DNA from: a virus
Strand: one strand, 5' to 3'
DNA: 22,632 nt
Virus record (IMG/VR): IMGVR_UViG_3300017748_000160
Location: 1 to 22,632 of that record
The position numbers were made by a program, and so were the translations under genes. Shown piece by piece: positions 1 to 16,327 of the stretch (the stretch's first letter is position 1; each line of letters begins with the position of its first letter). Below the pieces are notes generated by a model that saw only the letters and a list, made by a program, of their open reading frames with translations, did not search any database and was not told the DNA's origin.

Positions 1-414
1 TGCAGGGATAGTTGCACCACTCAGAGCTAGTTGTGCATCTGTTAAAGCACCCATAGAAGTGCTGTAGGCTTTCTGTGCTTCGTCTAAACCTGTAGCTGCC
101 TCAGTAACCTCAGGTGTTTCTGTGCCTTGCTTTAATATGAAGTCAGGCTTTTGAGTTGTCTCTGGTGGTTGTTGCTCTTGTTCTTCTTGTTGTTCCATAG
201 CACCTTCACTACCTTCAGCAAAGCCTGATGGAGCTAGGGGTTCACCTTCTACACGCTGTCTAGCAATGTCTGTGTAGCGTCCTATCTTAGCAGCAGCACG
301 AGGGCTAGACGCTAAGAATGCATCCATCTCATCCTTCTGTGCTGGGCCTGTAAAGCCCATCTCTTTAAGGAGAGTGTGTGTTTGCTGATTGGTAAAACCT
401 TTAAACTTTTTCAT
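1..414 (-). CDS. N-terminal part of a phage structural protein (cut by window edge)
   Basis: An open frame of 138 codons runs off the left edge. It starts at ATG 412-414, two bases after the stop of the upstream gene, with an AGG-containing ribosome binding site in TAGGTAGCA. The protein begins MKKFKGFTNQQTHTLLKEMG and continues with a stretch like DAFLASSPRAAAKIGRYTD, then a Glu/Gln-rich linker containing GFAEGSE. The opening 'GFT..Q...L..MG..G' followed by 'FLASSP.AA.K.G.Y' resembles the start of large structural proteins I know from uncultured marine phages; that is recollection, not a search. GFAEGSE echoes the FAEGG segment of the 731-aa protein at 16398-18593. Position at the end of the structural block suggests a virion component. 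The function cannot be named from this fragment. Confidence 0.75.
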   Translation of the reverse strand, partial: MKKFKGFTNQQTHTLLKEMGFTGPAQKDEMDAFLASSPRAAAKIGRYTDIARQRVEGEPLAPSGFAEGSEGAMEQQEEQEQQPPETTQKPDFILKQGTETPEVTEAATGLDEAQKAYSTSMGALTDAQLALSGATIPA

Positions 415-2578: not shown

Positions 2579-3520
2579 TTAATCTCCTGCACATGATGCG
2601 TGACCTGTTGCATTATACAAGTCACCAAAGTCAGTAGCATTTCCAGTATAGGCTATAGTTATATACTCCAGTACACCTGTACTGCTGGCATTACGACCAC
2701 CAAATACACCTCTCGTAACACTAGAAGCAGCCGTAACAAAATCAAGGTTTTGTATTAGATCACCGAAGTCTGTAGCATTTCCAGTAGTATCTATAGTTAT
2801 ATAGTCTATTACATTTCCTGCATTATTTCCGTTTTGACCACCAAATACACCACGAATATTATTAGAAACAGCCGCAGTTGCAAAGTTACGAGCTACAGTC
2901 AAGTCGCCAAAGTCTGTTGCGTTTCCCGTTGAGGCTATAGTAACATAGTCCATTACATTAGTAGGAGTACCAGCAGGTAAACCCCCACCAAATACACCAC
3001 GAGTTGTGCCTGATACCCCTGCTACTCTGCGTCTACCCACAGTAAGATTACCAAAATCTGTTGCATTACCTGTAGTGGCTATAGTTATATAGTCTATAGT
3101 ATTGTTACTATTTGCTATAGAGCTACCAGCAAATAAACCACGAATACCGTTTGATGAACCCCCTATTTCTTGATGAGATAAATTTAAGTCACCAAAATCT
3201 GTTGCATTGCCAGTAGTTGCAATTGTCACGTACTGTATTGCGTTACCCTGTGCACCACCAGCAAACACACCACGAACAGCATTAGACAAACCACCTGCGT
3301 AGTACCTATTTACATCTAAGTCACCAAAGTCTACTGAATTACCGGGGGTAGGTATGGAAATATAATGTATCGTATTAACATCATAGCCACCAGCAAATAA
3401 ACCCCTACTCCCCACAAAAGGGGGTGGGCTATTATCACCACCAACAGCTACACCATTAAAAGTCGTAGCCCCTGTTAGGTTGCTTATATCGTCTGTCTGA
3501 TGATTAATTGTTAGTGACAT
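2579..3520 (-). CDS. Kelch-like six-repeat protein, paralogue 3 (putative fibre tip/adhesin)
   Basis: 313 residues. It opens with the short segment MSLTINHQTDDISN...VAVGGDN shared with the other two paralogues, then carries six repeats of about 48 residues. Each repeat has the order RG(V/L)FGG(G), then NVIDYVTIATTGNATDFGDL, then 'VAR..A..SN.T'. The GG doublet, the Tyr strand and the DFG turn at fixed spacing look like blades of a kelch or galactose-oxidase-type beta propeller; six repeats would close a six-bladed ring. Such proteins in tailed phages are usually exposed fibre or receptor-binding parts. The last codons (GCA GGA GAT TAA) form the ribosome binding site of the next gene. Function is inferred from fold resemblance and position after the long fibre gene. 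Confidence 0.85.
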   Translation of the reverse strand: MSLTINHQTDDISNLTGATTFNGVAVGGDNSPPPFVGSRGLFAGGYDVNTIHYISIPTPGNSVDFGDLDVNRYYAGGLSNAVRGVFAGGAQGNAIQYVTIATTGNATDFGDLNLSHQEIGGSSNGIRGLFAGSSIANSNNTIDYITIATTGNATDFGNLTVGRRRVAGVSGTTRGVFGGGLPAGTPTNVMDYVTIASTGNATDFGDLTVARNFATAAVSNNIRGVFGGQNGNNAGNVIDYITIDTTGNATDFGDLIQNLDFVTAASSVTRGVFGGRNASSTGVLEYITIAYTGNATDFGDLYNATGHASCAGD

Positions 3521-3521
3521 A

Positions 3522-3920
3522 TTATGTTCCTGAAGTACCTGATGCTGTTCTAGCCACAGTTAAGTCTCCAAAATCAGTAGCATTACCAGTTGTAGCTATC
3601 GTGATGTAATCTATAACTTTACCAGAATCTGAGTTGACATATGTACCGTGAAATAATCCTCTAGTTGCATTTCCAGAGTTACCAAATGTTTCTCTGGCTG
3701 TAGTTAAATCACCAAAGTCTGTAGCATTACCTGTAGTTTGTATTGTAACATATTGAATAGTATTTACGTCACCACCACTTGTTATACCACCACCAAATAC
3801 CCCACGAGTAGTATTAGATAGACCAGCTAAACTACGTGTGGCTGTAGTTAAATCCCCAAAGTCCGTAGCATTACCTGCGGTGGCTACAGTAACGTAGTCA
3901 ATTACATTACTTATACCCAT
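3522..3920 (-). CDS. C-terminal half of kelch-like paralogue 2 (in -1 frame)
   Basis: 132 codons from ATG 3918-3920 carrying repeats 4-6 of the middle paralogue and a normal C-terminal end (VARTASGTSGT), whose stop overlaps the ribosome binding site of paralogue 3. It lacks the N-terminal segment present in the other two paralogues and begins mid-blade (MGISNVIDYVT). Its ATG overlaps the stop of the upstream frame (TAATG). It could therefore be made by -1 frameshifting from the upstream frame, by termination-reinitiation (a GGGGG run lies 9 bases upstream), or not at all if the split is a mutation. The repeat pattern continues without loss across the junction, so it is the second half of one gene. 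Confidence 0.8.
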   Translation of the reverse strand: MGISNVIDYVTVATAGNATDFGDLTTATRSLAGLSNTTRGVFGGGITSGGDVNTIQYVTIQTTGNATDFGDLTTARETFGNSGNATRGLFHGTYVNSDSGKVIDYITIATTGNATDFGDLTVARTASGTSGT

Positions 3921-3950
3921 TAATCTAAACCCCCAGCAAATAAAGCCCTT
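3888..3950 (-). other. Candidate -1 programmed frameshift site joining the two halves of paralogue 2
   Basis: The minus strand reads GGG-GGT-TTA-GAT-TAA in the upstream frame. It contains the slippery heptamer G-GGT-TTA (3932 down to 3926), an X-XXY-YYZ sequence in exactly the phase needed for tandem -1 slippage. After slipping, the ribosome reads AGA-TTA-ATG-GGT and enters the downstream frame, avoiding the TAA at 3920-3922. An SD-like AAGGG lies 13 bases upstream (3946-3950). A 9-bp stem (AGUAAUGUA/UACGUUACU, one U-G pair, 6-nt loop, 3888-3911) begins 14 bases downstream; that spacer is longer than usual. The predicted fusion has 319 residues and six repeats, like its neighbours. Confidence 0.55.
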
Positions 3951-4480
3951 GTGTTATCAGCACAACTTGTGTGAGCACTTCTTGCTATAGTCAAATCACC
4001 AAAGTCTGTTGCATTACCTGTAGTTGCAATAGTTACTGTATCAATTACATTTGATCTACCACTAGCACCATAACCACCAGAAAATATTGCTAGTGTACCA
4101 TTTGAAGCAGCAGCTACACTTCTTCCTACAGATAAATCTCCAAAGTCTTGAGCATTACCCGTTGAGGCTATGGTTATGTAATCTATTGAGGTATCAGAAT
4201 CTTTACCTGTATTCAAACCCCTTGTTCCGTTAGATGTAGAACTGCTATCTTGTCTAGACACATTTAAATCACCAAAGTCAGTAGCATCACCTGTAGTATC
4301 TACAGTAACATAGTCTATTGTATTTGAAGCAGAAGCTGATGCAGGTAAATTACCAGCCATCATTACAGCACGACTGCCATACCATACAGGACTATTATCA
4401 CCACCAACAGCTACACCACCAACAGTTATAACACCGTCATTGCTAATCTCATTTGTTTGATGATTAAATGTTAATGCCAT
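3920..4480 (-). CDS. N-terminal half of kelch-like paralogue 2 (0 frame)
   Basis: 186 codons from ATG 4478-4480. This start has GGAGATTAAT directly upstream and gives MALTFNHQTNEISN, homologous to the starts of paralogues 1 and 3. An in-frame ATG at 4514-4516 is rejected because it only adds the translated tail and ribosome binding site of the preceding gene. It carries three kelch-like repeats and stops in the middle of the fourth blade (RALFAGGLD, then TAA). The next frame resumes with NVIDYVT. Counting across a -1 shift, seven residues separate the GG of this half from NVIDY, the same as in RGVFGGG-7-NVMDY of paralogue 3. If not frameshifted it would be a half-propeller of three blades. 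Confidence 0.82.
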   Translation of the reverse strand: MALTFNHQTNEISNDGVITVGGVAVGGDNSPVWYGSRAVMMAGNLPASASASNTIDYVTVDTTGDATDFGDLNVSRQDSSSTSNGTRGLNTGKDSDTSIDYITIASTGNAQDFGDLSVGRSVAAASNGTLAIFSGGYGASGRSNVIDTVTIATTGNATDFGDLTIARSAHTSCADNTRALFAGGLD

Positions 4481-4481
4481 A

Positions 4482-5456
4482 TTAATCTCCTGAACATGCA
4501 CTAAATGACGAAACAATTGTTGTTAAGTCACCAAAGTCAGTAGCATTTCCTGTATTAGCAATTGTAATATATTGAATAACATTTACAGGGGTTCCTGCTA
4601 CATCTCCCCCAGCAAATATTCCTCTACTACTGTCAGATGTTCCTGCCATACCATAGACATTAGATGCTAAATCCCCAAAGTCTGCAGCATTACCAGTTGT
4701 ATCTATAGTAACATACTGCATTACATTTGTCCGACTTGATACTAATCCACCACCAATCACTGCTCTAGTTCTACTATCACATGTTGCGAACCAGTTACCT
4801 CCTGTAAGAAGATTGCCAAAGTCTGCAGCATTACCAGTTGTATCTATAGTAACGTACTGTATTGTATCTGTTCTAACACTTCCATCCGTGTAACCACCAA
4901 TAAATAAAGCTCTAGTGTCACTAGCAGATGCTGCTATTTGTTGTACGTGGTCTATGAGATTACCAAAGTCAGTAGCATTACCTGTAGTTGCTATAGTTAT
5001 ATAATCTATCTCATCCTTTTGACCGCCAAAGTTGCCGCCACCGAATAGCCCACGAGTTTTATTAGATGTCCCAGCAAGCTGATAACGGGCTACAGTAAGA
5101 TCACCAAAGTCTGTGGTATCACCTGTAGTAGCTATAGTTATATAGCTAATTTGATTTGTCATATTAGCATCATTAACAAACCCACCAGCAAATATTCCTC
5201 TAGACCCATTAGAACAAGCTGCATTTGCTTGATTTATAGCAGGAAGATCACCAAAGTCTGTAGCATTACCAGTAGTAGATATAGAAATGTATTGCATTAC
5301 ATTTACATTACCACCAGAACCCGTGTACCCCCCACCAAAAACTCCACGATCCCCAGCCGCAGGACCATTATCACCACCAACGGCTACGCCATTAACAAGG
5401 ATAGTACCAGTAGCATTGCTAATGTCGTTAGTCTGATGGTTGATGGTAAGAGACAT
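4482..5456 (-). CDS. Kelch-like six-repeat protein, paralogue 1 (putative fibre tip/adhesin)
   Basis: 324 residues, starting MSLTINHQTNDISN followed by VNGVAVGGDN, the segment common to all three paralogues. Six repeats follow (for example RGVFGGGYTG, then NVMQYISISTTGNATDFGDL), consistent with a six-bladed kelch-like propeller. The shared N-terminus probably docks or folds onto a common virion partner, while the propeller faces carry the variable loops between GG and the Tyr strand. The ribosome binding site is AAGG about ten bases upstream of ATG 5454-5456. The stop TAA is embedded in the ribosome binding site of paralogue 2 (GGA GAT TAA). Placed after the long fibre gene and a 101-aa protein, a receptor-binding role is likely but unproven. 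Confidence 0.85.
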   Translation of the reverse strand: MSLTINHQTNDISNATGTILVNGVAVGGDNGPAAGDRGVFGGGYTGSGGNVNVMQYISISTTGNATDFGDLPAINQANAACSNGSRGIFAGGFVNDANMTNQISYITIATTGDTTDFGDLTVARYQLAGTSNKTRGLFGGGNFGGQKDEIDYITIATTGNATDFGNLIDHVQQIAASASDTRALFIGGYTDGSVRTDTIQYVTIDTTGNAADFGNLLTGGNWFATCDSRTRAVIGGGLVSSRTNVMQYVTIDTTGNAADFGDLASNVYGMAGTSDSSRGIFAGGDVAGTPVNVIQYITIANTGNATDFGDLTTIVSSFSACSGD

Positions 5457-5786: not shown

Positions 5787-8700
5787 TTAGGCGTATGTAA
5801 CTTCAGTGGTTCTAATATTAGCCACCCATCTAATGTTATGGCTTGCTTCACCTGTACAAGTTATTGCTAGGGCGTTGTTTGTATTGTCTGCTGAGAGAGC
5901 CATAACCCAGCTAGACTGATTATCAATAACAGTAGTTGCACTGTTAGCAAGTGTTGTTGTGCCACCGTCATTTACTAGCAAACCCTCAATGCGGAATGAG
6001 GCATAGGCTTGTGCTCCGTTTTGCATAGCAGTGATAGTACCGTCAAAGGTAATGCAAGTATCACTTGCTGCTACGATTTGGTTAGTACTTGCAGCAGTTG
6101 CGTTATCTGTTGTAAGTACTGTTGCTGTTGCATCTGTTGTGTCTGCACGAAGGATAAACTGACCACCTTGTGAGTCTCCTCTGGCTGCAAATCTACCCCC
6201 CGCAAAAGCATATTTTCCTATTATTTCACTAGATGCAGATGAACCAATTGCAGTTGAAAACTTCTGTGTTGCCCTAGCATCATCTCCTATTGCAATGCTT
6301 GACCCACCAGATGCTCTAGCTGCACCTATATAGTATTGATTGCCCATTGCAAGAGAGCCTACACCAGATGCTTGTGCTTGATAACCGACAGCAATCCCAT
6401 AAGCACCAGAACCTTGAGAACTTTCCCCTAGTGCAATTGCGGCAGTTCCTGATGCTTTTGCTTGTTTACCTATTGCAATACAGTTAGTAGCAGTTGCACC
6501 GTAGGTATTTGTGTTGTTATCTATAACTGCTGCAAAACTGTCATTGCCATTTGCGTAAGAATGACCTAACGCCACAGCATTTGTGCCACTTGAGCCAATG
6601 GTAGCATAATAACCTAAACCTATAGCTCCTGTTGCTTCAACAAAAGCATTGTTACCAATAGCTACCGACTGTGCGCCTTGTGCGCCACGACTATTTCCAC
6701 TTTGGCCTATAGCCGCCGCAAAACTGTCCGTTCCACCTGCATTAGAATACGTAAGTGCTACTGCTCTTACACCTACAGCATTTGCGTGATTCCCAAAAGC
6801 AGCAGTGCCTGTAGCAGAAGCTGTATTATCTAATCCAATTGCAACACTACCGTTTGCAGAAGTTACGTCTTGGCCTATAGCAATAGATGTACCGTCAGAT
6901 GCTTTTGCTCTTTGACCCATAGCAATAGTATTTTCACCAAGCGCACCATAGCTGGATGTGTTGTTGGCTATAGCTGCTGCAAAGCTGTCTGCACCAGAAG
7001 CGTAAGATCGACTAATTGCAGTAGCATAAGAACCAGTTACAGCCTGTGCTTGATAGCCAATAGCAGCAGCACCACTTGATGTTGCATCCGTAAATGACCC
7101 AACCGCAAGAGCATTACTAGAGGTTGATGCTACGGAGTTTTTTCCAATCGCAAAAGAATCTGTTGAACTAGAAACAGCACCGTCACCAATAGCTATAGCA
7201 TTTGTACCCGTAGCACTTGGTTGAGCATTAGGTGAACTTTCATTAGCAGCATAAAGATCAGCACCACCGCCAGCATCAGCAAAAGTAACAGCCCCAGAGC
7301 CGTTTGTAGTAAGCACCTGATTGGCAGAACCATCGGATGTAGGTAGGGTATAAGCACCGTTTAAAGTGAGTGCACCTGCTGTACTAAGAAGCATTTTTTC
7401 AGAACCGCCCATTCTAAATGAAAGAGGGTATGCACCAGTATTACTATAAGTACTGTCAATAACTGTTTTACTATTACTATCATCTACACTAAGGTTTAAC
7501 TGTCTAAGCCCTGTTCCAGTAGACTGAAGTTTTAATTTTAAAGTATCAGAACCAGCTACCTCTAATCTACCCGTTGCTTGTGCTGTACCTGTTACACTAA
7601 CACCAGATGATGTTGTGGCGAGTTTTGCGGAATTATCATAGTACATTGTAGATGCACCATTAGATAACCCAACAAAGAAGTTTTCACCTGTGTGGGCTTG
7701 CAGTTTTACTTCGTTGTTACCACGAATGAGCATGTCACCCACTTCTGATGAAAACTCTAAGGAACTTCCGTTCCAATGGATTGATGCGTCTGATCCATCT
7801 CCAAAAATAATCTTGCCGTTATCTGCGAACTTAGCATCATGGTTAAATATTGCCGTACCAGCATCAGACATATCAAGGGTCAGGGCGGTTATGGTGCTAC
7901 CACCGTCATTACCCTTAAAGATTGTATCTGCATCTTGCTCTTTGTTTTCAATATTAAAGCCTGATGATCTATAAACCTCACCATACTGCAAACCCTGATA
8001 CACAAGGTTTAATCTATCGCCGTGGTCTATAGTAAGATCACTATTAGCAGCACTTCTAAGAGTAAGAAGACCAGAACTTTCATGTGTGGTTGCAATAACA
8101 CTGCCTGTTACACTAATACCTCCACTTTCTGTGGTAAGTTTTGAGTTTCCACTATGGAGTAGCTCAACCTGAGATGAACTTAAATTTAATAGGCTAGTGC
8201 CAGAGGCGTTATCAAATTGTATCTCTTGACCTTGTATTACTAAATGGCTTGATCCACTTTCTGTAATATGAGATTTGTTAGTAGAAGAGTCATGATAAAT
8301 TTGAAGATCAGAACCAGCTCCAAATATAGCCTTATCACTGTCAGCAAAAAGAATATCACTACCATTAGAGGCTAAATCACCACCAAGCTGTGGAGTAGTA
8401 TCTGCTACAAGGTCAGAAGACACAGCCGCAAAGCTCAATGTACCACTACCATCTGTTTTTAAGAAATGCCCCGCAGAACCATCTGAAATAGCTGTAGTAG
8501 GTGCAGTAGCAAATACAGCTACATTACCTGTAGCATTCGGAAATGTAATTGTACGATCTGCTGTTGGGTTTGTAAAGGATACTGTAGTCTCGTTAGCATC
8601 TGCACTAGAGCCTTCAACACTAAACCCTGAGTCACTCAATTGCAAACCAGATACAATTGGACTTGTCAGTGTTTTATTAGTAAGTGTTTTAGTTGTAGCG

Positions 8701-11048
8701 GAGAAGTATGTATCAAGTAAGTCTACATCACGATAACCTATTTCGTTACCGTTATCAAACATAAGTATAGCATCATTACTTGCTATTGCCGTACTTGTAT
8801 CTACACTTACAGCAGAAAAGTCAGCTACTGTGTTTAGCTCTGCACCTGTGGCATTAAGACCTGTTACGTTATTAGCTGTACCATTAACTGCTTGGATACG
8901 GGCTTCTACCGATTGTTGTGTTGGAATAAGGGTAGCACTGTTAGATGACATATCGTCTTCATCTACAAAACCTGTAATAGTTATGCTACCGTCTGACAAA
9001 CTACCATAGGTAATCGTACCTGTAGTGGTAATAGCACTTGACCCATTATCAATAGAACCAAAGCCACTTGTAATGCTACCACTATTAAGAGCACCTACTG
9101 TAGTAACATTGCTTAGAGTATCTAAAGATGTCTCCATGTAAGTTTCAAAGTCAGTCAGTGCTACCTGCTTCATAGTACCAGCATCATTAACTACAACTCT
9201 ATCTGCATCTGCAAGAGTAGTAGATGTAGCTGATGTACCACCATCCATAATGTTTAGCTCAGTAGCAGTAGCATTTACACCTGTGAGGTCTGTAGGAGCT
9301 ATAGTAATATTAGCTGTACCATCGAAAGACTGACCAGCAATTGTACGTGCAGTTGCTAGGGCTGTAGCTGTGCTTGCATTACCTGTAACAGCACCTGTAA
9401 CATTGCCTTCAATATTGGCTACAAGTGTACCCGTAGTAATAGTAAGATCACCTGTAGACGCACCAGTAAACGTACCTGTACCTATAGTAAACTTGTCTGC
9501 ACTTTCGTCAAAACCAATAAAGGCATTAGCATCATCACCACGTTCAATGACAATACCTGCATCACCTGAAGCAGAACCTGTACGACCATTACCTAACTCA
9601 ATAAGTTTATCATCGACAGTCATGTTTGCAGAGTTTACTGTAGTGGTTGTACCATCAACCTGTAAGTTACCTGTAACTGTTAGGTTCTGAGATAGTGTGA
9701 CATTACCACCAGAAGTAATAGCAATAGCATCTGTATCACTAGCAGAGCCTATGTTACCGCCATCACTGATAATTATATTACCACCAGTAATGTTTCCTGT
9801 AGTTGTAATGGTACTAGAGCCTGTATCAATTGTACCAAAGCCAGACGTAATAGAACCTGCGTTTAAAGCACCAACAGTTGTAGCAGCCGTTGTTACAAGA
9901 TTAGGCATAGCCGTGATTTCATCATCAAGATATGCAGCAAGGTCTGTCATTGCAACCTGTACCATAGTACCGTTGTCGTTCATAACAACACGATCAGCAT
10001 CAGCTACAGTAGTAGATGTTGCAGAGGTATCACCGTCTAGTATATTAATCTCAGAAACAGTTACTGTAGCTCCATCCAGTTTATTTAACTCAGCAGCCGT
10101 AGATGTAACCCCATCTAAAATGTTTAGTTCAGCCGTAGTAGAAGTAACACCATCTAGAATATTTAACTCTGCTGTAGTAGACGTTACACCGTCCATGATG
10201 TTTAACTCTGCAGTTGTTGCAGTAACACCATCCATAATATTGAGTTCAGCAGTAGTGGCAGTCACGCCGTCTAGAATATTTAATTCAGTGGCGGTAGAAG
10301 TAACACCATCAAGTATATTAAGTTCTGCTGCAGTAGAGGTAACGGCTGTACCGCCCAGTGAAAGGGAAGTTGCAGCTAAAGTAGTAAACGTACCTGCACC
10401 TGCACTAGCTCCACCAATAGTAGCACCATCAACTGTACCACCATTAATGTCTGCAGTGTCAGCTACAAGAGAATCAATGTTAGCTGTACCATCAATGTAC
10501 AAGTTACGCCACTCAGAGCCTACAGCACCTAAGTCATGTGTATCGTCAGCAGAAGGTAATAGTGGGGAAGCAACATCTGCAGTAACTGTTACCGTATCAC
10601 TAGCAGCATTACCAAGTGTAGTATTACCATTTACAGTAAGGTTAGCTGTAATGGTAGCACTCTCGTCAACCTGTAGTGTGTCAATAGTAGCAGTGCCATC
10701 TAGGTACAGGTCTTTGAACTCTACACTAGATGTACCAAGGTCAATGTCGTTGTCTGTGACAGGAGTAATAACACCATCTTGGATTCTAATTTGCTCTACT
10801 GCTGCACTAGATACCTCTACAAATACACCAACACGATTGTTTGATGTATCTACAGAAACTTTATTAAGTGCATCTGAGTCAGCAATCAGTGGTACGTATG
10901 CACCCTCTGCTGTTGTACCATCGTGCTTGTGTCCTGATGAAGCATTAAACGCAGCAAGTACTTGGTCAAACTCTAGGTTTAACGGGTTAGCTCGTACAAC
11001 GGCTGTTGCCACAATGTCTGCTGAAGACTGTCTTGTATATCCTGCCAC
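5787..11048 (-). CDS. Very long repeat-rich tail fibre / adhesin, 1753 aa
   Basis: The start is GTG (11046-11048) after AGGAGATAAAAA. Domains in order: an N-terminal part (1-230) with two copies of a 'DLG....(E).(K/R)(D/N)LY(L/I)DGTA.ID' motif; eight 13-residue LNILDG repeats (237-340); two copies of a 73-78 residue block (from 341 and again near 605); a long beta-rich middle with typical fibre phrases (NKTLTSPIVSG, DLQIYHDSS); a region of YadA-head-like repeats (about 1284-1610, pattern AIAIG...A.A.G); and a C-terminal domain of about 140 residues ending RTTEVTYA. YadA-type heads form left-handed beta rolls in trimers, so a trimeric fibre is likely. I see no C-terminal autoprotease motif. 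It probably builds the main side or tail fibre that contacts the host surface. Confidence 0.9.
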   Translation of the reverse strand: MAGYTRQSSADIVATAVVRANPLNLEFDQVLAAFNASSGHKHDGTTAEGAYVPLIADSDALNKVSVDTSNNRVGVFVEVSSAAVEQIRIQDGVITPVTDNDIDLGTSSVEFKDLYLDGTATIDTLQVDESATITANLTVNGNTTLGNAASDTVTVTADVASPLLPSADDTHDLGAVGSEWRNLYIDGTANIDSLVADTADINGGTVDGATIGGASAGAGTFTTLAATSLSLGGTAVTSTAAELNILDGVTSTATELNILDGVTATTAELNIMDGVTATTAELNIMDGVTSTTAELNILDGVTSTTAELNILDGVTSTAAELNKLDGATVTVSEINILDGDTSATSTTVADADRVVMNDNGTMVQVAMTDLAAYLDDEITAMPNLVTTAATTVGALNAGSITSGFGTIDTGSSTITTTGNITGGNIIISDGGNIGSASDTDAIAITSGGNVTLSQNLTVTGNLQVDGTTTTVNSANMTVDDKLIELGNGRTGSASGDAGIVIERGDDANAFIGFDESADKFTIGTGTFTGASTGDLTITTGTLVANIEGNVTGAVTGNASTATALATARTIAGQSFDGTANITIAPTDLTGVNATATELNIMDGGTSATSTTLADADRVVVNDAGTMKQVALTDFETYMETSLDTLSNVTTVGALNSGSITSGFGSIDNGSSAITTTGTITYGSLSDGSITITGFVDEDDMSSNSATLIPTQQSVEARIQAVNGTANNVTGLNATGAELNTVADFSAVSVDTSTAIASNDAILMFDNGNEIGYRDVDLLDTYFSATTKTLTNKTLTSPIVSGLQLSDSGFSVEGSSADANETTVSFTNPTADRTITFPNATGNVAVFATAPTTAISDGSAGHFLKTDGSGTLSFAAVSSDLVADTTPQLGGDLASNGSDILFADSDKAIFGAGSDLQIYHDSSTNKSHITESGSSHLVIQGQEIQFDNASGTSLLNLSSSQVELLHSGNSKLTTESGGISVTGSVIATTHESSGLLTLRSAANSDLTIDHGDRLNLVYQGLQYGEVYRSSGFNIENKEQDADTIFKGNDGGSTITALTLDMSDAGTAIFNHDAKFADNGKIIFGDGSDASIHWNGSSLEFSSEVGDMLIRGNNEVKLQAHTGENFFVGLSNGASTMYYDNSAKLATTSSGVSVTGTAQATGRLEVAGSDTLKLKLQSTGTGLRQLNLSVDDSNSKTVIDSTYSNTGAYPLSFRMGGSEKMLLSTAGALTLNGAYTLPTSDGSANQVLTTNGSGAVTFADAGGGADLYAANESSPNAQPSATGTNAIAIGDGAVSSSTDSFAIGKNSVASTSSNALAVGSFTDATSSGAAAIGYQAQAVTGSYATAISRSYASGADSFAAAIANNTSSYGALGENTIAMGQRAKASDGTSIAIGQDVTSANGSVAIGLDNTASATGTAAFGNHANAVGVRAVALTYSNAGGTDSFAAAIGQSGNSRGAQGAQSVAIGNNAFVEATGAIGLGYYATIGSSGTNAVALGHSYANGNDSFAAVIDNNTNTYGATATNCIAIGKQAKASGTAAIALGESSQGSGAYGIAVGYQAQASGVGSLAMGNQYYIGAARASGGSSIAIGDDARATQKFSTAIGSSASSEIIGKYAFAGGRFAARGDSQGGQFILRADTTDATATVLTTDNATAASTNQIVAASDTCITFDGTITAMQNGAQAYASFRIEGLLVNDGGTTTLANSATTVIDNQSSWVMALSADNTNNALAITCTGEASHNIRWVANIRTTEVTYA
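6219..7199 (-). repeat. YadA-head-like repeat region of the fibre with a 'DSFAA' super-repeat
   Basis: Roughly fifteen or more short repeats of the form (S/N)(I/V)AIG..A.A.G cover residues 1284-1610 of the fibre. Within them a longer unit recurs three times, marked by SGADSFAAAI, GGTDSFAAAI and GNDSFAAVI, each followed by about 20 residues and another AIG/AMG repeat. On the DNA these lie near 6985, 6723 and 6535. Confidence 0.75.
9018..10028 (-). repeat. Duplicated 73-78 residue block inside the fibre gene
   Basis: Segment 9795-10028 (beginning TSATSTTVADADRV) and segment 9018-9236 (beginning TSATSTTLADADRV) encode near-identical blocks. Both also share VGALN(A/S)GSITSGFG and end ...ITTTG. 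The second copy is five residues shorter. Each is preceded by an LNI(L/M)DG unit, so the duplicated module probably includes one repeat. Confidence 0.7.
10029..10340 (-). repeat. Eight tandem 39-nt coding repeats (LNILDG type)
   Basis: Eight contiguous 13-residue units of the form TSTTAELNILDGV cover residues 237-340 of the fibre. The two central pairs are nearly identical; the last two units (LNKLDGA, INILDGD) are degenerate. LNILDG repeats are common in fibres of marine phages and probably extend a beta-structured shaft. Confidence 0.85.
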
Positions 11049-12848: not shown

Positions 12849-13560
12849 CTGTGTTTAATTGACTGCTTCTTACTGGACGTGTAATCATTGTAGACACAAC
12901 ATTAACGGGTTGATCTAAAATAAGTCGGCGCATCATCTCAATACCGTCTTTAAACTTTTGTTCGTGCATAGCAGCACTCTGTTCGTTAGACCTAAAGAGC
13001 ATCATGTACATCATAGCCCCGTCAATAACTACGTGCTTAAAACGGTCAGGTATTAAAGCTGTATCACTTGATGCTGTTAGCTCAGCAGGGAATTTAAAAT
13101 ACCTATACTCAATTACATAAGCAGCATTAGGGACAGGCGTAACGCCAAACTTCTCTTCCTGTGTCAGGTACACATAATCAGGAGCGCTTCTAGCACCCTC
13201 ACCGCCTAACTCTTCTAGGGACTTAAACGATGTAATGTATTGATCGAAGGTGAGTAGTTTTAGTTTCTTAGGTGTATTACTTTCTGTAGTAAGCTGTCTA
13301 ATATAAAAGGTATCCCAATCTGCTTTAGAATAGTCTGCAGGAAAGGCATATGTCCCTGTACCTGCAGTTAGTGTCTGCGTTGTTGTAGTCAACGCAAAAG
13401 GCCACTCTTGAGCATCCTGTAACATCTGCCTAATAGATGAGTTGATAGCATCCTTGGCAAGGGCTTGTACGTTTTTAACTGCAGTAAACTCAGACTCAGT
13501 AATCTGAACCTCATTAAGTCTACGTAAAAGCTCGTTTGTCAGGTTGATAAAAGTAGCCAT
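12841..13560 (-). CDS. Neck / tail accessory protein (P22 gp4-like, T7 gp11-like)
   Basis: 239 residues from ATG 13558-13560 (MATFINLTNELLRRLNEVQI). A longer frame from GTG 13591-13593 is rejected because its first codons lie in the intergenic hairpin and have no ribosome binding site. The N-terminal helices (LTNELLRRLNE, then ALAKDAINSSIRQMLQDAQEWPFA) and the following 'TGTYAFPADYSKADWDTFYI' region match the style of adaptor proteins that dock under the portal. Position between the capsid block and the gp10-like hub gene agrees. The family call rests on gene order and overall pattern; the length exceeds P22 gp4 (166 aa). Confidence 0.7.
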   Translation of the reverse strand: MATFINLTNELLRRLNEVQITESEFTAVKNVQALAKDAINSSIRQMLQDAQEWPFALTTTTQTLTAGTGTYAFPADYSKADWDTFYIRQLTTESNTPKKLKLLTFDQYITSFKSLEELGGEGARSAPDYVYLTQEEKFGVTPVPNAAYVIEYRYFKFPAELTASSDTALIPDRFKHVVIDGAMMYMMLFRSNEQSAAMHEQKFKDGIEMMRRLILDQPVNVVSTMITRPVRSSQLNTDV

Positions 13561-13584
13561 AAGAATCTCTGTTGGATGTACGTA

Positions 13585-13608
13585 AGGGGCCACCCGAAAG
13601 CAGCCCCT
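13585..13608 (-). other. Intergenic hairpin with UUCG loop, no U-tract
   Basis: On the minus strand AGGGGCTGCT-TTCG-GGTGGCCCCT can form a 10-bp stem, including three G-U pairs, capped by UUCG. It lies between the decoration and gp4-like genes and is followed by TTACGTACATCC rather than a run of U, so it is not a canonical intrinsic terminator. It may be a processing, stability or partial-attenuation element. Its 3' half shares TTCGG.TGGCCCC with the hairpin at 16353-16366. Confidence 0.6.
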
Positions 13609-13618
13609 AAAGTTTTAC

Positions 13619-14101
13619 TTATGCAAGTGTGTCACGATCTACTTCATTAGCAGCCATGTCACCCATGTCTGTGCAGTCCATAAGAACAGCCCATACACGG
13701 AGCTTACCTGATGAAACAGCACCACCTGATAGGGTAGCAATTGTTACATCAATATTGTCATCAGCAACAGCCATTACGGGCTGGTATGCTGCAGGGTTCT
13801 GTGCGACTACTGCTGCTGCAGATGTAGCATCGAAACCATCAACAAATACGTCAGCATCAACCATACCTAAGTCTACTGTGAAAGTAGAACCATCGGATGC
13901 AGTGTCAACTTCGATACCTGCGTTCAGGACCATAGTACCTTTAGCTACAGCAATTACAGGAATGACATCAGATGCTGCAAGAGCAGAACCTTTGTCAGAC
14001 AAGGCTGTTGCCAAGTTTAAGGTAGTTTGAACCATATAAGGGTTGCGACCACGCTGCGAAACGCCACGAGCAGAAGCAAGAGTATTATCACCAAGTGCCA
14101 T
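13619..14101 (-). CDS. Putative capsid decoration / head protein, 160 aa
   Basis: 160 residues, beginning MALGDNTLASARGVSQRGRN. Apart from this short N-terminal arm the protein is Ala/Val/Asp-rich and beta-like (TFTVDLGMVDADVFVDG, DNIDVTIATLSGGAVSSGKL), without membrane segments. It starts 14 bases after the major capsid gene, with GGGAGG ahead of the ATG, indicating high expression. Small beta-rich proteins immediately downstream of a coat gene are commonly decoration or head-fibre proteins, and I assign this role on those grounds. It ends just before the UUCG hairpin. An alternative is a minor head-completion protein. Confidence 0.7.
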   Translation of the reverse strand: MALGDNTLASARGVSQRGRNPYMVQTTLNLATALSDKGSALAASDVIPVIAVAKGTMVLNAGIEVDTASDGSTFTVDLGMVDADVFVDGFDATSAAAVVAQNPAAYQPVMAVADDNIDVTIATLSGGAVSSGKLRVWAVLMDCTDMGDMAANEVDRDTLA

Positions 14102-14115
14102 ATCTCATTCCTCCC

Positions 14116-15177
14116 TTATAGACCAGATGTGTAGATTGCGTTCACGAGCGCCTCAGGACGAAGAATCTTGCGCCCATAGAGATGCATACCACGAACGATA
14201 TCTGCAAATGAATCTGGATCACGGTAAGTCTCAGTCTTGTTAATCTGCTCAGCAGTTGCTGCAGCAGTAGAATGACCTGCAACCAACACACCGTAGTGTG
14301 CAGAACCTGTAGATGTGGTAGAGGTTGGACCGTTACCTACTTCAGGAAGGTTGTTGGACATATAGACTTTGAAGCCGTGAATGTTGTTGAAGACCAGACC
14401 GTTCTGTAGTCCTGAACCACCGAAATCGGCGTTCAACAAGCGGCTGTCTTCGTCTTTAAGTAGTTCTGCAAACACCGGGTCGATGACAATCCATCTATCA
14501 TTTGTGCTTACATTTTGCTGGTCAAGCTTACGTGACATCCGTGCAAGAACTTGCATAGGTGTAGCGTTAGCTGTTGTAGTATTCAACGAGTCAGCACCAG
14601 TACGGGGCTTAACTACGATTGAGTTACCTGAAGAGCCACTGTTAAAGTCAGAAGCGTCTAGCTTCATGCTTGACAGAAGTTCATCATCGCCAGCAGTTGA
14701 TACAGCTTTAGAACCGTTTACGGTTGTGTTAGCTGCGTTAGCTCTACCATGAATAGCTGATTGCTTGAAGCCAGACATATAACCAAGAACGTCTTGGTCA
14801 AACTGGTCAGCCAAACGATAAGCTGCACGGTCAGAAGCGATTGAACCGAAGTTGATGTGGCTGTGCGCCTCTTCGATATCGTCTACCTTGAAAGCAAAGT
14901 AGTTAGCTTTGTCTACGGTGAGAGAAAAGTCCTCATCGTCAAGGTCTTGTGGTGTGATAGTCGTGCCACGGGCATACGACTTCACTGTGATTTCAGGCTC
15001 TTTGATAATCTTAACGGAATCACCCATGTTAGCAATCTCTCCGAAATAATCAGAGTTTGTAATTGCTTCTACAATTGAGGCCTTGCGGAAAGCAAGTTGT
15101 ACCTGTTTGCTGTAGATTACTGGACTAAAGTTACCGTTTGGTAGATTACCGTAGCCTGACGCTGTTGCGAAAGCCAT
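14116..15177 (-). CDS. Major capsid protein
   Basis: 353 residues (MAFATASGYGNLPNGNFSPV). The features are those of HK97-fold coat proteins of podoviruses: an N-terminal arm, then SDYFGEIANMGDSVKIIKEP and VKSYARGTTITPQDLDDEDF (E-loop/P-domain style), the segment LTVDKANYFAFKVDDIEEAH, and a long spine-helix-like segment DRAAYRLADQFDQDVLGYMSG. The C-terminal part (NRWIVIDPVFAELL, then FKVYMSNNLPE) is the usual A-domain pattern. A near-perfect ribosome binding site AGGAGG precedes the ATG. The gene has its own promoter and a 5' leader, as expected for the most abundant virion protein, and follows the scaffold gene. The likely nearest families are P22-coat-like or other marine podovirus capsids. 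Confidence 0.92.
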   Translation of the reverse strand: MAFATASGYGNLPNGNFSPVIYSKQVQLAFRKASIVEAITNSDYFGEIANMGDSVKIIKEPEITVKSYARGTTITPQDLDDEDFSLTVDKANYFAFKVDDIEEAHSHINFGSIASDRAAYRLADQFDQDVLGYMSGFKQSAIHGRANAANTTVNGSKAVSTAGDDELLSSMKLDASDFNSGSSGNSIVVKPRTGADSLNTTTANATPMQVLARMSRKLDQQNVSTNDRWIVIDPVFAELLKDEDSRLLNADFGGSGLQNGLVFNNIHGFKVYMSNNLPEVGNGPTSTTSTGSAHYGVLVAGHSTAAATAEQINKTETYRDPDSFADIVRGMHLYGRKILRPEALVNAIYTSGL

Positions 15178-15347
15178 AGTTAAATCCTCCTTAGATAGTT
15201 AGGCTTATTTAGCATTTTATAAGCAGAACAATCAGGTAAGAGGCTGTTCGTTCTAGGGTGCGACATCAAAGAAACTCGGCCAAGTTTAATGTCTGTCGGG
15301 CCTATAGTAGAGCAGGTAAGTCTTATCATATTTGTCTTAGCTTAATG

Positions 15348-15399
15348 TAAGGTGTAAGTATAGTTGCTGAAACGTCTAACAGGGCATACTCACACCTTA
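15348..15399 (-). other. Long stem-loop at the 5' end of the capsid transcript
   Basis: Minus-strand arms TAAGGTGTGAGTAT and ATACTTACACCTTA pair over 14 positions with one G-U wobble. They enclose a 24-nt loop that can itself form a short stem. TTAA/TTAA could extend it beyond a 2-nt bulge. It begins about six bases after the predicted transcription start, so it caps the mRNA. Candidate roles are 5'-end protection, RNase III processing, or a regulatory leader. Confidence 0.65.
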
Positions 15400-15411
15400 T
15401 TAACATACACA

Positions 15412-15440
15412 GTTATAACATAGAGTTTGTGTATTGTCAA
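15412..15440 (-). promoter_or_regulatory. Strong sigma70-type promoter for the capsid gene
   Basis: On the minus strand a -35 box TTGACA (15435-15440), a 17-base spacer and a -10 box TATAAC (15412-15417, five of six consensus) lie just after the scaffold stop codon. The predicted start is near 15405. It would boost the capsid, decoration and downstream tail genes over the scaffold and portal genes. Confidence 0.8.
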
Positions 15441-15448
15441 TACTTTAT

Positions 15449-16327
15449 TTATCTCGCACCACCAGAAATATCATAAACAAACTTTCCGCTACGAATAGCT
15501 TCCATGATATCATCTGACTTTTGTTCGTACTCTTGTGCGCTCATACGTTGCACATCAGACTCACGCAAGTGTCCAGCAGTAGTATCGCTGTCAGGTTTGG
15601 AGACACGTTTTGTTTTTACAGCAGATGCTGCATCTTTATTCTTCTGCCTCTTTCCTTTGGTATCCATGCCGTTGTCTACTTTATATAGATCAATAACACG
15701 TATTACGGACTGAGGGTCATCTTGGTTTTCGTACAGTGCGTCCTGCACCCACTTAGGCTGTTCACCAGCCCAATCGTGAAAGTCATCACTGCCACGTAGA
15801 TCATCGAAGTCTTCATGCATGGCACGGATTTCGTTCTGTGCCTTTGTGCGCTGGGCTTCTGAGTTGATCTTGTCAATCTCTTTCAGGCGCTCATCTGCAG
15901 AGCTAAACTTTTCTTGTGCTTTCTTCTCTGCAATAGTCTCGACAATGCCAGCAATCTCAGGGTACTTCTCTGCCCACGCTTCAATACTTTCATCTGACGT
16001 AGGAGCACGAACCTTGCCTGTTTTCTGTAAGGTGTTTAGCTGCGCCTTGAGTTGCTTTAACTCTTCAGACTGCTTGTTAAGATGGCTACGTAGATCACTG
16101 TAGCGTTTCTTGTATGTACGCTCTTCACCAGAGAGTTCTTCTTTTTCTTCTTTATCAGGTTTATCTTCTTGGGCTTCTGCTTTTTCTTCAATCTCTTCAG
16201 TGCGAGACTTCATCAAAGCTTCTAGCTCTTCTTCCTCTTTCTTGATCTTATCTTCTAGAGATGTAGGTTTCTTTGGGTTTACAAGACCTACTGCCTTTTG
16301 TGTTTCTACTTCTGCTAGTTCAGGCAT
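15449..16327 (-). CDS. Capsid scaffolding protein
   Basis: 292 residues, strongly charged, no aromatic-rich core and no membrane segment. Residues about 22-115 are Glu/Lys-rich coiled coil (EDKIKKEEEELEALMKSRTE; LRSHLNKQSEELKQLKAQL). Further helical segments follow, such as ERLKEIDKINSEAQRTKAQ, with a basic stretch near 228-245 (TKGKRQKNKDAASAVKTKR). A basic patch in the C-terminal part is typical for contact with coat protein in podovirus scaffolds. The position directly before the major capsid gene fits. The start ATG 16325-16327 has AAAAAGGAAAACAACT upstream, preceded by the UUCG hairpin. I see no protease motif. Confidence 0.82.
   Translation of the reverse strand: MPELAEVETQKAVGLVNPKKPTSLEDKIKKEEEELEALMKSRTEEIEEKAEAQEDKPDKEEKEELSGEERTYKKRYSDLRSHLNKQSEELKQLKAQLNTLQKTGKVRAPTSDESIEAWAEKYPEIAGIVETIAEKKAQEKFSSADERLKEIDKINSEAQRTKAQNEIRAMHEDFDDLRGSDDFHDWAGEQPKWVQDALYENQDDPQSVIRVIDLYKVDNGMDTKGKRQKNKDAASAVKTKRVSKPDSDTTAGHLRESDVQRMSAQEYEQKSDDIMEAIRSGKFVYDISGGAR

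Follow-up and report, generated by a model that had tools for sequence, protein, structure and literature searches.

The question raised by this locus is whether the stretch between a scaffold-position gene and the capsid gene of a podovirus carries a functional RNA and, if so, what that RNA might do. We analysed a virus record of 22,632 bases (IMG/VR IMGVR_UViG_3300017748_000160), and "the window" refers to this whole stretch of DNA. It derives from a podovirus of the HMO-2011 type, of which it is a fragment. Its capsid protein shares 79% identity with its counterpart in Roseobacter phage CRP-345 and 77% with that of Puniceispirillum phage HMO-2011, its upstream genes match terminase and portal models, and its gene order is similar to that of HMO-2011. 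Elsewhere in the window, successive ORFs of the tail-fibre part (2579-5456) are built from many copies of a YVTIATTGNATDFGDL-like unit, and an ORF of 1753 aa (5787-11048) has tandem "TAELNILDGVT" repeats and YadA head repeats.

The features of the intergenic region ahead of the capsid gene, and the gene itself, are as follows.

15412-15440, minus strand: promoter, with -35 TTGACA (15440-15435), a 17-nt spacer and -10 TATAAC (15417-15412)
15348-15399, minus strand: 5' hairpin (P0) of 14 pairs (15399-15386 with 15361-15348), one of them G-U
15194-15343, minus strand: conserved structured domain, the match to covariance model R1
15180-15329, minus strand: 49-codon frame from ATG (15329) to TAA (15180), not conserved and probably due to chance
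15186-15191, minus strand: ribosome-binding site AGGAGG
14116-15177, minus strand: major capsid protein gene, 353 aa, with its ATG at 15177

Related leaders and their distribution

A capsid search of IMG/VR yielded 80 loci, the best 80 of 599 matching stretches. By a mechanical rule, 208-297 nt separate the capsid gene from the upstream frame in 76 of these best 80; the exceptions are L037 (362 nt) and three loci, L041, L046 and L066, which lie at a contig edge and begin only a little way ahead of the capsid gene. Among gaps of the usual type, the longest, 297 nt, belongs to L077, whose 5' hairpin is about 40 nt bigger. We extracted 203 leaders, dropped 5 with no recognisable -10 and clustered the remaining 198 at 90% identity into 75 representatives. 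Leaving out 13 divergent leaders, among them that of the window, gave a core set of 62, and 43 of these core leaders form alignment A1.

Covariance model R1 was built from 43 relatives, with the window excluded. In the window it scores 46 bits at 15343-15194 (E 9.1e-8 in 120 kb), and a search of the whole record places the match at the same position. Among 100 sources, 75 match at E 0.01; the 25 misses comprise 9 named phages and 16 IMG/VR loci, the latter being the divergent group around L020 and L030, L076 and the truncated L041 and L066. In 19 whole named phage records, 11 match at E <=0.002 and all of these matches lie at the capsid leader (HMO-2011, CRP-345, CRP-1, CRP-13, CRP-9, CRP-2, CRP-212, CRP-603, CRP-207, CRP-235 and ctYwJ313). 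There is one confident R1 site per genome. CRP-3 has a match at the leader that is near noise level (E 0.02), those of phiM6 (E 0.1) and RHph_N3_13 (E 0.34), also at the leader, are within noise, and the leader of CRP-738 is doubtful (E 0.65, no twin-loop motif).

The pattern is restricted to capsid genes. Two motif scans brought in further loci. In the first, 118 of 119 matches precede capsid genes, and the 119th is a short stretch for which the rule chose a reading frame that has no capsid match. In a second scan the count is 71 of 72, with the match 150-156 nt ahead of the start; the 72nd match is on a contig that ends after 131 nt. Four phages with related capsids, the Pelagibacter phages HTVC033P, HTVC115P and HTVC103P and Vibrio phage CHOED, have capsid gaps of 26-58 nt and give R1 noise only (0.04-0.9), away from the capsid leader. 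The leader is therefore dispensable for this capsid type.

Several further observations concern variation in, or resemblance to, the leader. An HNH/PacI-like endonuclease gene (815-1384) in L213 (ctYwJ313) splits the promoter and 5' hairpin from the leader core, possibly as a homing insertion into the leader. In L203 (CRP-13), the segment from the P1 3' strand to the ribosome-binding site (about 1397-1500) exceeds that of relatives by roughly 95 nt. A scan of host genomes gave 6 matches, of which L223 may be a phage contig. Short blastn matches (28-40 nt) in N4-like roseophages lie around the ribosome-binding site, and we attribute them to chance.

Promoter, 5' hairpin and the upstream open frame

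The first-pass annotation of this DNA had proposed that the capsid gene has a near-consensus promoter of its own. The promoter is where it was placed, and of the 198 related leaders that are 250 nt or longer, 197 have the pattern TTGACA-16..18-TATAAY; the leader promoter exceeds chance expectation. Transcription likely starts near 15405, so that the leader would be about 228 nt long; the first-pass annotation gave about 225 nt. Besides the capsid promoter, one other TTGACA-16..18-TATAAY site exists on either strand of the window, at 1462 on the minus strand, where it lies between ORFs 1469-1771 and 1180-1389.

The 14-bp stem-loop predicted at the 5' end of the transcript was likewise found, at 15399-15348, and its covarying pairs in relatives include compensatory changes. 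Its folding z-score is -2.7 in the window and averages -2.4 over the 75 representatives (first 80 nt). The whole leader of the window has z = -3.0, and 2 of 200 shuffles fold equally well; over the 75 representatives the whole-leader z averages only -1.8. Both the 5' hairpin and the whole leader of the window fold beyond chance. Protection of the mRNA, one role suggested previously, is possible for the conserved 5' hairpin, but it leaves the larger conserved domain unexplained.

It had also been suggested that the 49-codon frame couples its translation to that of the capsid gene. The frame is present and its TAA does lie between AGGAGG and the capsid ATG, but it is no more than chance would give. 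A corresponding frame of at least 40 codons occurs in 1 of 75 representatives, namely the window itself; among near relatives, L006 has ACG at the position of the start codon, and in L002 a TGA stops the frame after five codons. We therefore rejected this frame as a coupling device. The chief conserved element, short of which the first-pass annotation stopped, is the roughly 150 nt from the hairpin to the ribosome-binding site.

A conserved domain of about 150 nt

The core of this domain is a single long irregular hairpin consisting of P1, P1c, P2, P3, P4 and P5. In the window, its parts and the neighbouring helix P6 are as follows.

15220-15344, minus strand: closing helix P1, UAAGC (15344-15340) with GCUUA (15224-15220), corresponding to GCAAAC/GUUUGC of relatives
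15238-15324, minus strand: P1c, AAGA (15324-15321) with UCUU (15241-15238)
15320-15316 and 15243-15242, minus strand: outer internal loop, CUUAC opposite CC, in the span of P1c
15244-15315, minus strand: P2, CUGCUC (15315-15310) with GAACAG (15249-15244), one mismatch
15254-15304, minus strand: P3, UAGG (15304-15301) with CCUA (15257-15254)
15300-15299 and 15260-15258, minus strand: inner internal loop, CC opposite CAC, in the span of P3
15261-15298, minus strand: P4, CGACA (15298-15294) with UGUCG (15265-15261)
15272-15287, minus strand: P5 hairpin, AAACU-UGGCCG-AGUUU, with a palindromic GGCC loop
15203-15224, minus strand: P6, GCUUAU (15224-15219) with AUAAGC (15208-15203), adjoining the ribosome-binding site

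The structure was derived from pair statistics and a block table of the core leaders; RNAalifold found no structure in the first 75-sequence alignment. In the block table, compensating changes are seen in P1 (GCAAAC/GUUUGC), P1c (UCUG/CGGA), P2 (CUGA/UCAG, CUAA/UUAG, CUAG/CUAG), P3 (UGG/CCA, UAG/CUA, AAG/CUU) and P4 (CGU/ACG, CAU/AUG, UACU/AGUA, UGAC/GUCA), and the P5 hairpin is variable. In five leaders (L081, L083, L101, L131 and L168) the P5 arm is larger, and a AACUGAUCAUU loop replaces the usual GGCC hairpin.

We counted 34 pairs in the 43 aligned leaders, 32 of them nested and two belonging to a candidate pseudoknot. These pairs are formed in 90.5% of cells, and both sides change in 186 cases, where shuffles give 61.7 and slid controls no more than 46, statistics that are partly circular in that the structure was read from those same sequences. 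A fairer test compared all 11,476 column pairs with two tree-based null models. At E 0.05, 6 pairs are significant under one null and 5 under the other; 5 of the 6 and 4 of the 5 lie inside the structure, all in P4 and P5, and the one other pair reflects slippage of the alignment at the ribosome-binding site. Pairs in P1, P2, P2b and P3 are singly below significance in this tree-aware test of 11,476 pairs. In a wider alignment of 64 distinct rows, which was fitted to the model, both-side changes occur in all 32 nested pairs, including all six pairs of P1. The capsid gene has a 5' leader that is conserved, structured and non-coding and that stands behind its own conserved promoter.

Twin internal loops

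The central helix P2-P3, of 13-15 nt, is bordered by two similar internal loops. The outer loop has NNAC opposite CC and the inner has CC opposite CAC, and both strands read 5'-NAC-C...helix...G-CC-3', an approximate two-fold symmetry. The loop residues are near-invariant in the aligned leaders. Under a search rule written after the sequences had been inspected, both loop halves are found in 51 of 87 leaders, whereas 30 rounds of dinucleotide shuffling give 0.43 on average and never more than 2; the inner half is found in 65 of 87 and the outer in 69 of 87 (shuffle means 4.4 and 4.9). The loops are kept in CRP-212, where the helices are quite different (outer CAGUGA/UCACUG, inner GUGAGG with CCUCGU). 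The soil phage phiM6 has both halves (CUAC-CCAUA...UAUGG-CC and UUAG-CC...AUAC-CUAA), and RHph_N3_13 has the inner half. By eye, a third copy of the loop appears to be present in the 5' hairpin of some lineages.

This symmetry suggests that the putative ligand would be a dimeric protein, probably a homodimer. Symmetric loops would also suit an RNA whose role is structural only, or one that a host protein or RNA polymerase binds.

The closing helix and the ribosome-binding site

P6 competes with P1 because both helices use the same strand. The sequence GUUUG(C/U)AU is present in 49 representatives, with GCAAAC upstream in 48 of them and the P6 partner as well in 37. Within the 43-sequence alignment P6 shows no covariation, and for this reason we dropped it as an independent helix and kept it only as a competitor of P1. 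The thermodynamic ensemble favours P1, with a mean of 0.69 (n=41) versus 0.19 for P6 (n=33). P6 does not cover the ribosome-binding site. The predicted probability that this site is unpaired averages 0.41 over 75 leaders and exceeds 0.5 in 44% of them, and the site is thus predicted to be neither clearly hidden nor clearly open, being half-accessible on average.

Possible functions of the leader

We consider it quite possible, though short of an even bet, that the leader is a protein-bound element that controls translation of the capsid gene, possibly autogenously. We favour such a reading because the element is found at capsid genes only, has one confident copy per genome, closes beside the ribosome-binding site and has two symmetric loops. 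The restriction to capsid genes in both motif scans is what an autogenous coat-protein operator requires. In the mechanism that we propose, the twin loops would be two half-sites for a protein dimer, for which a virion protein of the phage (the capsid or scaffold protein, for example) is the likeliest candidate. Its binding would steady the domain and its closing helix P1, the choice between P1 and P6 beside the ribosome-binding site would set how often ribosomes start on the capsid gene, and capsid synthesis would thereby be matched to assembly.

The most specific form of this proposal is a two-fold symmetric operator through which the capsid protein or its scaffold partner controls the capsid's own translation. 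The twin CC//NNAC loops, about one helical turn apart, would then hold a protein dimer that shifts the balance of P1 and P6. So specific a form is unlikely. The coat-protein operators of RNA phages, e.g., MS2, are small hairpins that repress the replicase. They have in common with our leader an RNA structure beside a start codon and, as an idea, a dimeric coat-protein ligand; here, however, the phage is a tailed DNA phage, the RNA is large and leads the gene for the capsid itself, and any ligand is putative.

We also looked for a dedicated partner gene, by comparing the presence and absence of 93 HMO-2011 frames in 15 of the 19 named records (all except CRP-9, CRP-207, CRP-235 and CRP-603, with the doubtful CRP-738 counted as leader-bearing). 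None of the 93 frames fits except that of class II ribonucleotide reductase (13373-15316 in HMO-2011, L229), which occurs in all 11 records counted as leader-bearing and in none of the 4 leaderless ones. This is probably a lineage effect, and we rejected the enzyme as a partner. With no dedicated partner beyond this enzyme among the 93 frames, shared virion proteins or host factors are left as candidates.

A plainer possibility is that a strong late promoter and a leader raise the stability and translation of the capsid mRNA with no specific ligand, by analogy with gene 10 of T7. T7 gene 10 encodes the capsid protein and has the promoter phi10 between the scaffold and capsid genes, a 5' hairpin and a strong ribosome-binding site; its promoter serves T7's own RNA polymerase and its leader is short. 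The position of the gene, the separate promoter, the 5' hairpin and the strong ribosome-binding site are all shared with our leader. On the other hand, the promoter here is of the sigma70 type, and near-invariant loop residues and a covarying domain of about 150 nt exceed what a generic stabiliser would need. We regard this explanation as somewhat unlikely.

The nascent RNA might instead act on host RNA polymerase, causing processive antitermination of the late operon as put RNAs do. The put RNA of HK022 is described in PMC9378689 as about 70 nt long, with irregular stem-loops, in two copies behind the two early promoters; it binds RNA polymerase and suppresses termination, and so acts on transcription. 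Our element likewise is a structured RNA with irregular stem-loops that begins directly behind a sigma70-type phage promoter, and no dedicated protein was found for it in the screen of 93 frames. However, it is about 150 nt long, twice the length of put, has a single confident copy per genome instead of two, and adjoins the capsid ribosome-binding site; moreover, a simple scan for sites resembling terminators saw none from the capsid gene as far as the gene that follows it. We regard antitermination by this RNA as improbable.

Still less probable is a trans-acting RNA for head assembly or packaging, possibly dimeric through contacts between P5 loops. The packaging-motor RNA of phi29 (pRNA) is a free RNA of similar size with the potential for loop-loop contacts, unlike the present mRNA leader. 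Of 57 extracted P5 hairpins, 51 have a palindromic apical loop (GGCC in 40, GUAC in 7), which would allow dimers, but several lineages have no palindrome (AGGCAU, CGGCGG, CUUGCUA), and we saw no terminator or processing site that would separate the leader from the mRNA. The loop GG could also pair with the CC of the inner loop, though without covariation. The corresponding pseudoknot, UGGCC on the P3 side with GGCCA in the P5 loop, pairs in 96.7% of cells with zero covariation and no excess over shuffles in the 43 leaders; P3 accounts better for two of its G's, and several lineages lack the loop GG.

Least probable of all is a metabolite-sensing riboswitch, for which a complex covarying domain with two competing helices beside the ribosome-binding site would be suitable, but the element is confined to capsid genes and matches no riboswitch in Rfam.

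Relation to known RNAs and significance

A search of Rfam 15 with window positions 14900-15700 and 12 relatives, at permissive settings, gave only chance-level matches far under the gathering scores. Full-text literature searches returned no title or abstract opening that describes the element, and term searches of the main texts of PMC9038755, PMC6918029, PMC8528129 and PMC6256558 revealed no promoter, non-coding or intergenic element at this place. The Ocean-VI motif is a marine-only candidate structured RNA of unknown function with no Rfam number (Weinberg et al. 2010, PMC2864571). Our element is likewise a marine structured RNA, and the two were compared by description only, so an earlier partial sighting is possible. 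The suggestion in the first-pass annotation of an undescribed RNA element that tunes capsid yield thus holds for the element, in view of its covariation, its position and the lack of an Rfam match; that it tunes yield is what we infer.

The core motif is also found in soil relatives that infect Rhizobium and Sinorhizobium. One of them, phiM6, infects Sinorhizobium meliloti 1021, a laboratory strain, and the idea is therefore open to ordinary genetics. HMO-2011-type phages are described in PMC9038755 as a dominant marine group with a broad distribution. A large conserved RNA structure sits on the capsid mRNA of this group, and its features point to a control of capsid dosage at the RNA level that would be undescribed as far as Rfam and our literature searches reach.
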